Positions 7,081-9,174 of a DNA stretch of 35,601 nt are shown here, piece by piece. The notes beneath the pieces are model-generated. The model had not been told where the DNA came from and made no database searches. It saw nothing but the letters and a program-made list of their open reading frames with translations. A program made the translations under genes and the position numbers. Numbering within the stretch: position 1 is the stretch's first letter; the number at the start of each line of letters is the position of its first letter. Source of the DNA: Butyricicoccus sp. (GTDB taxonomy: Bacteria; Bacillota; Clostridia; Oscillospirales; Oscillospiraceae); contig JAMPGF010000005.1 of assembly GCA_023664105.1 (NCBI GenBank), positions 1 to 35,601 on the forward strand. Direction: 5' to 3'.

Positions 7081-7109
7081 TTGACAAGAGGGCGTATAGT
7101 AAATATAAT
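7081..7109 (+). promoter_or_regulatory. Consensus sigma-A promoter of the lysine-riboswitch unit
   Basis: TTGACA (7081-7086) and TATAAT (7104-7109) both match consensus and are exactly 17 bp apart. The predicted transcript starts about 7116, shortly before the aptamer. Confidence 0.93.
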
Positions 7110-7133
7110 AATTGCGTCAATTGAACAAGGCAT

Positions 7134-7456
7134 GATAGAGGCGCGGCAACCATCAGTAGCTTCCGGAGACACGGCAGGAACCGTGGAGGCGAAAGGGGTC
7201 AGCCGCCGAAGGGTCCCGCTCTTTCCTGGGCGCGGGATTTCCTGGGCCGCCGGACAATATCCGGCGGACTGTCGCAGTAGAACCTGTGTTCATAAGCGAA
7301 AGCGTTGTCTGGGCGAGGGATTTTTTCGTCGGGCAAGGCAAATTTTCGCAGAAATACTTTGTGTATTTCAAGAAAATTTAACGCAGCCCGGTGGAAAAAT
7401 ATCCGTCCAGGCGGCGTTGGCGCTTGTGAATGCAGGTTCTGAAGCGGAGAGCTGTC
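7134..7456 (+). ncRNA. Lysine riboswitch (L box) aptamer with very long P5
   Basis: The conserved lysine-aptamer blocks occur in order: GATAGAGGCGC (7134-7144), AGTA with GGAA of the P2 loop-E region, GAAAGGGG (7191-7198), GCCGCCGAAGG (7202-7212), CCTGGG (7241-7246), ACTGTC (7268-7273) and GGAGAG (7446-7451). P1 can form from GATAG (7134-7138) with CTGTC (7452-7456), P3 from TCCCGC with GCGGGA, and P4 from 7247-7254 with 7260-7267. Where the short P5 hairpin is expected, the RNA folds into a hairpin of about 160 nt (7279-7440), so the aptamer is almost twice its usual length. In known members lysine binding stabilises P1 and favours a downstream terminator. Such a terminator is present at 7481-7523, so an OFF switch for the transporter gene is inferred. 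Confidence 0.88.
7279..7440 (+). repeat. Long imperfect inverted repeat forming the P5 extension
   Basis: The outer 20 bases (7279-7298) pair completely with 7421-7440: 17 Watson-Crick and three G-U pairs. Inner blocks continue the helix: 7307-7315 with 7404-7412, 7327-7334 with 7386-7393, 7340-7347 with 7372-7379, and the apical stem 7351-7357 with 7363-7369. AGTA (7276-7279) opposite GAA (7441-7443) at the base resembles a loop-E motif. The G-U pairs suggest the structure matters as RNA, though a decayed palindromic insertion is also possible. Confidence 0.85.
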
Positions 7457-7480
7457 AGTGGCTGCCATAGCTTCGGTTTG

Positions 7481-7523
7481 GTCATGAATCAGTTTATCTG
7501 CTGAGTTCATGACTAATTTTTTT
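7481..7523 (+). terminator. Intrinsic terminator of the lysine riboswitch
   Basis: GTCATGAATCAG (7481-7492) pairs with CTGAGTTCATGAC (7501-7513), with one bulged G, and is followed by a T-rich tract TAATTTTTTT (7514-7523). It sits directly before the GGAGG ribosome binding site of the transporter, the standard place for riboswitch-controlled attenuation. I could not identify the competing antiterminator by eye. Confidence 0.88.
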
Positions 7524-7536
7524 GGAGGAAAGAAAA

Positions 7537-9174
7537 ATGAGAAAGCAGACAAAGAACCTCTGGCGCGCGCTCGCGGTTATACTCGTGGTCGCCGCCGCGC
7601 TGGCGCTCCCCGTCCTGGCGGACGACGGCGAGGGCGCGTCCGGCATGTACGGCACCGCCTGGGCGCTGGTGCCGCCCGTTGTGGCCATAGTGCTGGCCCT
7701 CATCACCAAGGAGGCGTACTCCTCGCTGTTCATCGGCATCCTCGTCGGCGCGCTGTTCAACTGCGGCTTCGCCCCCGCCGCCACCATGGACGCCATCGTC
7801 AGCGACGGCTTCATCTCCGCTATTGAGGGCAATGCCGGCATTTTCCTGTTCCTGGTGATACTTGGCACCATCGTGGCGCTGGTGAACGCCTCCGGCGGCT
7901 CCGCGGCCTTCGGGCGCTGGGCGGAGAAGAACATCAAGACCCGTGTCGGCTCCATGCTCGCCACCCTCGTGCTGGGCGTGCTCATCTTCATCGACGACTA
8001 TTTCAACTGCCTGACTGTCGGCTCCGTCATGCGCCCGCTCACCGACCGGCACAAAATCTCCCGCGTGAAGCTGGCCTACCTCATCGACGCGACCGCCGCG
8101 CCCGTGTGCATGATAGCGCCCGTGTCCTCCTGGGCCGCCGCGGTCTCCACGGTCATTTCCGACAACGACCTGAGCCTCGGCTGGGACGGCATGGAGCTGT
8201 TCGTCCGGGCGATACCCTACAACTTCTACTCCCTGCTGACCTTCGTGTTCATCATCGCCCTGTGTGTCATGAAGTTTGACTACGGCCCGATGAAAATACA
8301 CGAAATGAGCGCACAGCTGAGCGGCGAGCTCGGCGCGCTGGACGGCGCGTCCGAGGAGTCCGGCAACTCCAACGGCAGGGTCCTTGACCTTATCCTGCCC
8401 GTGGTCGTGCTCATCATCACCTGCGTCATCGGCATGATCTATGTCGGCGGCTTCTTCGGCGTGGACGCCTGGGGCGGCACGGACTGCGCGGGCGACTTCG
8501 TCGCCGCTTTCGCCAACACGGACGCCACCGTTGCCCTGCCCTGGGGCGGGCTGATTGCCCTGGTGTTCACCGTTATCTACATGGTGGCCCGCCGCCTGAT
8601 CTCCTTCAAGGATGCCATGGCCTGCGTGCCCAAGGGCTTTAACGCCATGATCGCCCCCATCATCATCCTGACCCTGGCGGTCAGCCTGAAGAACATGTCC
8701 TCCGGCCTGGGTCTGAGCATATTCGTCAAGGGCGTTATGGAGGGCGCGTCGCAGGGGCTGTTCAGCATGCTGCCTGCGGTCATCTTCGTCGTGGCCTGCT
8801 TCCTGGCTTTCGCCTCCGGCACCAGCTGGGGCACCTTCGGTATCCTCATCCCCATCGTCGCCTCCGTGTTTGAGCCGGGCACAACCCTGCTGACCATCGG
8901 AATCTCCGCCTGCCTTGCCGGGGCCGTCTGCGGCGACCACTGCTCGCCCATCTCCGACACCACCATCATGGCCTCCGCCGGGGCCCAGTGCGACCACATC
9001 AGCCACGTCTCGACCCAGCTGCCCTACGCCATAACCGTGGCGGCGGTGAGCTTTGTCAGCTTCATCCTCGCCGGCTTTATCCAGAACTGGATAGTCTGCC
9101 TGCTGATCGGCGCGGTGTTGACCGTCGGCACGCTGTTCGGCATCAAGACAGTCACCGCGAAGAAGGACGCGTAA
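7537..9174 (+). CDS. NhaC-family antiporter-type transporter, probable lysine carrier
   Basis: This 545-residue multi-pass membrane protein belongs to the NhaC Na+/H+ antiporter superfamily. Family signatures include LGVLIFIDDYFNCLTVGSVMRP, IAPVSSWAAAVS, FASGTSWGTFGILIPI and GDHCSPISDTTIMASAGAQCDHISHVSTQLPYA. About 12 hydrophobic segments can be traced. The first 30 residues (ending LPVLADDG) look like a signal peptide or extra segment. ATG 7537 has GGAGG at nine bases. A TTG at 7522 in the same frame lies in the terminator T-tract and is rejected. It is the only gene behind the lysine riboswitch and has its own terminator. NhaC-type proteins have been placed in L-box regulons by comparative genomics and proposed as lysine transporters, so lysine uptake is the likely role (inference). 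Confidence 0.92.
   Translation: MRKQTKNLWRALAVILVVAAALALPVLADDGEGASGMYGTAWALVPPVVAIVLALITKEAYSSLFIGILVGALFNCGFAPAATMDAIVSDGFISAIEGNAGIFLFLVILGTIVALVNASGGSAAFGRWAEKNIKTRVGSMLATLVLGVLIFIDDYFNCLTVGSVMRPLTDRHKISRVKLAYLIDATAAPVCMIAPVSSWAAAVSTVISDNDLSLGWDGMELFVRAIPYNFYSLLTFVFIIALCVMKFDYGPMKIHEMSAQLSGELGALDGASEESGNSNGRVLDLILPVVVLIITCVIGMIYVGGFFGVDAWGGTDCAGDFVAAFANTDATVALPWGGLIALVFTVIYMVARRLISFKDAMACVPKGFNAMIAPIIILTLAVSLKNMSSGLGLSIFVKGVMEGASQGLFSMLPAVIFVVACFLAFASGTSWGTFGILIPIVASVFEPGTTLLTIGISACLAGAVCGDHCSPISDTTIMASAGAQCDHISHVSTQLPYAITVAAVSFVSFILAGFIQNWIVCLLIGAVLTVGTLFGIKTVTAKKDA

Follow-up and report, generated by a model that had tools for sequence, protein, structure and literature searches.

A short P5 helix is usual, though not strictly defining, in lysine riboswitches, and the leader described here, in a 35,601-nucleotide stretch of a Butyricicoccus sp. 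genome (contig JAMPGF010000005.1, positions 1 to 35,601; hereafter the window), carries one of about 175 nt instead. This locus raises the question of where such an arm comes from and whether the riboswitch that bears it still works. A first-pass annotation of the same DNA had read the segment as a lysine riboswitch with a giant P5 hairpin, and suggested that the arm alters folding speed, adds a protein or second-ligand site, or is an insertion tolerated at a permissive position. Here we report that the observation itself is confirmed and its interpretation supported in part: the P5 arm is no P5 innovation but a dispersed palindromic mobile element (MITE), present as a full-length copy, and the locus is very probably a standard lysine OFF switch that tolerates a self-folding IS5/IS1031-type MITE at the permissive tip of P5. 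The direct basis of this reading is the identity and family of the element, its target-site duplications, the empty and shortened orthologous sites and an intact predicted aptamer; lysine binding, OFF switching and the near-neutrality of the arm we infer.

In an Rfam covariance-model scan of the window, the lysine riboswitch, RF00168, was the sole family above its cut-off (7128–7315, 73.6 bits, E = 1.4e-17; gathering threshold 30 bits). The unconstrained minimum-energy fold of 7130–7458 contains all five aptamer helices, P1, P2, P3, P4 and P5 with its arm, in a five-way junction closed by the conserved P1 strands UGAUAG (7133–7138, kept in two congeners, G001 and G002) and CUGUCA (7452–7457). 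The first-pass annotation had recognized the conserved blocks around the arm and had placed the 3' strand of P1 correctly. P2, P3 and P4, with the loop-E/kink-turn blocks of P2, occupy 7142–7266 in both the RF00168 match and the fold, and the predicted L2–L3 kissing pair joins CAGGAA (7175–7180) to UUCCUG (7223–7228), both segments being identical in G001 and G002. The original base of P5 is formed by UCGC (7272–7275) and GCGG (7444–7447), the relative with an empty site reading CUGUCGCAUUAAUUGCGGAGAGC.

The aptamer and the features around it lie on the forward strand. A sigma-70 type promoter (TTGACA, 17 nt, TATAAT; 7081–7109) matches the consensus at 12 of 12 positions and is readable also in the G002 leader. 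An intrinsic terminator (7478–7523; stem 7478–7516, then a U-tract) was seen by folding and missed by a simple terminator scan, and its hairpin is kept in both congeners; it stands, as previously annotated, directly before the Shine-Dalgarno sequence GGAGGA (7524–7529). The following gene (7537–9174, 545 aa; PF03553, E = 1.9e-47) belongs to the Na+/H+ antiporter family and is of the NhaC/LysW type, a presumed lysine transporter, COG1757/lysW being a known lysine-riboswitch target class (PMC5584792). With its closed junction, its L2–L3 complementarity and a lysine-related gene behind an expression platform, the locus is identified as a lysine riboswitch before an NhaC/LysW-type transporter gene, with lysine as its predicted ligand. 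It has the five-helix aptamer, P2 loop-E block, L2–L3 kissing, terminator platform and target gene class of NhaC/LysW-associated RF00168 riboswitches (PMC5584792), and differs from them in a P5 lengthened by mobile insertion and in a misplaced Rfam aptamer end.

That misplacement arises within the insert, where the RF00168 model falsely closes both P5 and P1, while the real 3' end of the aptamer is the P1 strand at 7452–7457, which pairs with 7133–7138. The cmscan delimitation is wrong, and an automated annotation that adopted it would lose the real 3' half (7440–7457); covariance-model annotation can in this way place an aptamer boundary inside a mobile element. The lowered score, 73.6 bits against 86.1 and 92.6 in relatives, could also be viewed as a trace of a riboswitch broken by the insertion, its leader now decaying and blind to lysine, and an insertion at the base of P2 (GGGGTCAGCC versus GGGG-CGGCC) is indeed specific to the window species. 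We consider such a loss of function unlikely: part of the score difference comes from the misplaced 3' half, P1, the kissing loops, the loop-E blocks, the P4 loop, the P5 base and the terminator are all kept, the ORF of the transporter is undamaged and folding without constraints gives a native-like structure.

The giant hairpin is real. Against the roughly 175 nt of the window, P5 measures 11–20 nt in 22 related lysine riboswitches (those that could be parsed) and 44 nt in G002; it is of normal size in L001, the second lysine riboswitch of the window's own genome, and 11–15 nt long in the distant NhaC leaders L026, L025, L028, L034 and L019. The arm (7268–7452) has a folding energy of -101.5 kcal/mol (z = -12.2), equalled by none of 200 shuffles, and in the predicted fold the MITE stem stacks on P5, which starts with UCGC/GCGG. 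The outer 20 pairs (7279–7298 with 7421–7440) are standard throughout, three of them being G-U, just as had been claimed. A further proposal, that AGTA (7276–7279) opposite GAA (7441–7443) at the base of P5 duplicates the loop-E of P2, has to be given up: U7440 is an extra base in this motif and pairs with A7279, and A7279 and U7440–A7442 are target-duplication bases. The likeness to the P2 motif is accidental. When the arm was compared with known RNA families, only weak chance matches to miRNA-precursor hairpins were returned.

The element proper (7280–7439, consensus GAACCTGTATTCA...TGAATACAGGTTC) is 160 bp long and without coding capacity, and ends in 19-bp terminal inverted repeats, GAACCTGTGTTCATAAGCG on the left (7280–7298, forward) and GAACCTGCATTCACAAGCG on the right (7421–7439, reverse strand). 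It is flanked by GTA (7277–7279) and TGA (7440–7442), target-site duplications decayed from TNA, the corresponding bases being TTA in the empty site of G001 and, on the right, TAA in G002; this decay in the window's own copy counts against the preferred explanation. Of 65 copies, 43 carry the same TNA 3-mer on either side of the element; at 3–8 bases further out, 0–5 of 65 agree. Many genomes of the family, other genera included, have end-to-end matches to the segment 7279–7440 (query 1–162, 70–80% identity) at unrelated sites, and some match is present in 56 of 150 genomes. A covariance model of the element, built from 13 copies, found matches in 14 of the 14 genomes on which it was run, in some of them at dozens of separate places and in the window's own genome at eight or more; its match counts may include reverse-strand matches of one palindrome, and many distinct places are listed nonetheless. 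The terminal repeats recur at unrelated loci of the same genome (reversed control pattern, 0–1). Since a sister copy elsewhere in G002 shares 90% identity with the arm (146 of 162 columns), the subfamily of the window arm was, by this evidence, mobile within the genus.

These copies bear on the idea that lysine riboswitches themselves evolved the arm as a structured extension of P5, and so gave rise to a new aptamer subclass with a site for a protein or a second ligand. The arm is certainly long and highly paired, and P5 does vary in size, that of riboswitch L022 in G047 having an extra inner hairpin. However, the same 160-bp sequence is present outside riboswitches in many genomes, flanked by its own target duplications, and P5 is short in close orthologues. 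As the origin of the arm, P5 innovation is refuted by these dispersed copies together with the empty site, and a new subclass is extremely improbable. There is no evidence for the protein or second-ligand site proposed at first pass, because the sequence of the arm is common to copies at unrelated sites.

The history of the insertion can be read from the two congeners, in each of which an NhaC gene with 79% identity lies below an orthologous leader; apart from the insert, all three keep the aptamer, the kissing segments and the terminator hairpin. In G001 the leader (CGCATTAATTGCG) has an empty site and a short P5, CGCA-TTA-ATTGCG, and in G002 a shortened remnant, GGGGCCGGTATTCATAAAATGCAGGTTCTAA, occupies a position identical to that of the window insert. 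The junctions (empty GCA-TTA-ATTGC in G001; TAA-ATTGC on the right in G002; GTA on the left and TGA on the right in the window) are consistent with a single entry of the element into the P5-loop TTA, in an ancestor shared by the window species and G002, and with its later shortening in G002. Short solo forms of the element exist, and an already-short element may possibly have inserted independently in G002. Empty site, remnant and dispersed copies together bear out the last of the three initial suggestions, that of an insertion tolerated at a permissive position. The annotation had also named a refuting result for its structural reading, relatives with a normal short P5 together with a mobile insert, and this result was obtained. 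Random decay of the arm, however, was not seen, about 62 of 64 positions being still paired.

An exact-pattern search for P5 insertions in the lysine riboswitches of 400 genomes of the family, which is blind to diverged ends, returned the window only; pattern matches in G306 and G407 look unrelated, and the one in G306 proved on reading to be a short solo hairpin. A second short copy of the element was seen in G002 between the terminator and the Shine-Dalgarno sequence of its transporter leader (L050, about 1325–1358).

The IS1031 group of the IS5 family is characterized by TNA duplications, and the ends of its member ISLrh read GAACCTGTCTAGTATCT (PMC12016507). A TNA target and ends starting GAACCTGT fit an IS5/IS1031-type non-autonomous MITE. 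The element has these ends and the 3-bp TNA duplications in common with IS1031-group insertion sequences and MITEs (PMC12016507), and differs from them in being non-coding, about 160 bp long and palindromic throughout, with an autonomous partner that is only a candidate. This candidate, L223 from a relative (1419–1641 in G272:C9), has an IS5-type OrfA (DUF4096) just inside TAA followed by GAAACCGTATTCACAAATGGGG; the contig end cuts the locus so that one end is present, and this end is identical to the MITE end at 18 of 22 positions (shuffled controls within the locus, at most 15). A PF01609 search of ten genomes gave no transposase partner with the element's ends, no terminal-repeat pairs with the spacing of about 1–2 kb expected of an autonomous element were among the places listed for five genomes, and no complete autonomous partner was found in the genomes searched, the assemblies of which are fragmented. 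Among the other copies (L114, L118, L120–L123 and L156–L168), the core of the element (about 7312–7405 in the window) is common to subfamilies with different outer arms, AGAGCTTATCCCG, AGGCCTTGTTTGA, AGAAGCTGTATTC and others, which suggests arm swapping or several mobilizing transposases.

Pairing is maintained throughout the element family. Of the paired cells in 13 full-length copies, 95.6% hold standard pairs, and compensatory changes occur at 35 of 64 pairs, a number reached in none of 500 shuffles. Counted on the strand that is transcribed at this locus, these copies have 70 G-U cells to 6 A-C cells, and in the wider set (65 copies, alignment A3) the inserted strand has 388 against 54, although some of this lean is built in, RNA energies having been used to derive the structure to which the wider alignment was then fitted. 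Selection or an amplification bias probably favours folding of one strand in the element family, and the asymmetry suggests that one-strand folding, as RNA or as single-stranded DNA, matters for it. By a crude longest-ORF method, no clear orientation bias relative to genes was seen.

The same asymmetry could be enlisted for a MITE arm that has been co-opted, its stem of about 64 pairs acting as an RNase III substrate or folding module that alters the processing, stability or folding kinetics of the mRNA. Where the window copy alone departs from the sister copy and the family, every altered pair still pairs, five having become G-U and none A-C, with one altered on both sides, and transcripts of Correia MITEs are known to be cut by RNase III (PMC10969869). 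As proof of selection at the riboswitch, however, the G-U excess was rejected: it is family-wide and cannot be credited to this site. A required role is further disfavoured because the arm is shortened to a P5 of about 44 nt in G002 and absent in G001, and there is no sign of a conserved length or sequence of the arm at the riboswitch site. We therefore regard co-option as doubtful, and see only a slim chance that the aptamer has exapted the transposed hairpin as one of its working parts, such that output or mRNA stability would depend on the folding or processing of this hairpin, for example by RNase III.

Under the preferred reading, a tolerated insertion in a standard OFF switch, a 160-bp non-autonomous IS5/IS1031-type MITE would have inserted at the TTA in the loop of P5, most likely in an ancestor that the window species shares with G002, turning an arm of roughly 15 bases into one of 175. 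Because it is an almost perfect palindrome, inserted in its best-pairing RNA orientation, the transcript would fold it as one long stem on P5. The insertion would have left the five-way junction, the kissing loops and the terminator untouched, and since these are intact the OFF switch most likely still works: lysine would stabilize the junction and P1, the terminator would form and expression of the transporter would fall. In G002 the insertion would later have been reduced to a small hairpin. The key tertiary contacts of the lysine riboswitch are the L2–L3 kissing, the P2 kink-turn and L4–P2, and the only P5 contacts given are those of the junction-end residues G141 and A162 (PMC3764141). The tip of P5 is most likely without an essential tertiary contact, so that the palindrome can fold on itself. 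The enlarged P5 of L022, with its inner hairpin GACCTGCCCCGTAGGTC, may be an independent sign that P5 is permissive.

Mobile palindromes are tolerated inside structured functional RNAs elsewhere, as Rickettsia palindromic elements sit in tmRNA and RNase P RNA (PMC2229807); here the host RNA is a riboswitch aptamer, and element family and lineage are unrelated. The Correia/NEMIS elements of Neisseria (PMC10969869, PMC2229807) are likewise MITEs, of roughly 100–155 bp, the transcripts of which form long stems; theirs are cut by RNase III, whereas the element described here is known from its sequence and predicted fold. A literature search of limited scope found no earlier report of a MITE or mobile palindrome inside a riboswitch aptamer. 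With this locus nature has carried out an insertion experiment on an aptamer that ranks among the most complex, identifying a tip of the lysine riboswitch that accepts about 160 extra nucleotides, and across the three congeners the site is found empty, fully occupied and occupied by a shortened insert. This allows a direct test of whether a structured regulatory RNA can take up a self-folding mobile palindrome and stay unbroken, or make it one of its own parts.

Two further element copies lie near other RNA families. In the window's own genome (L158, 295–460 and 166–302, both on the reverse strand; G000:C56), a copy with TAA/TAA duplications separates a promoter-like sequence from a Moco (molybdenum) riboswitch, RF01055, in the same orientation. 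In G002 (L164, 657–715; G002:C146), a match to RF02440 (SpF59, ldcC RNA), far outside Streptococcus, is found about 50 nt before an element copy.
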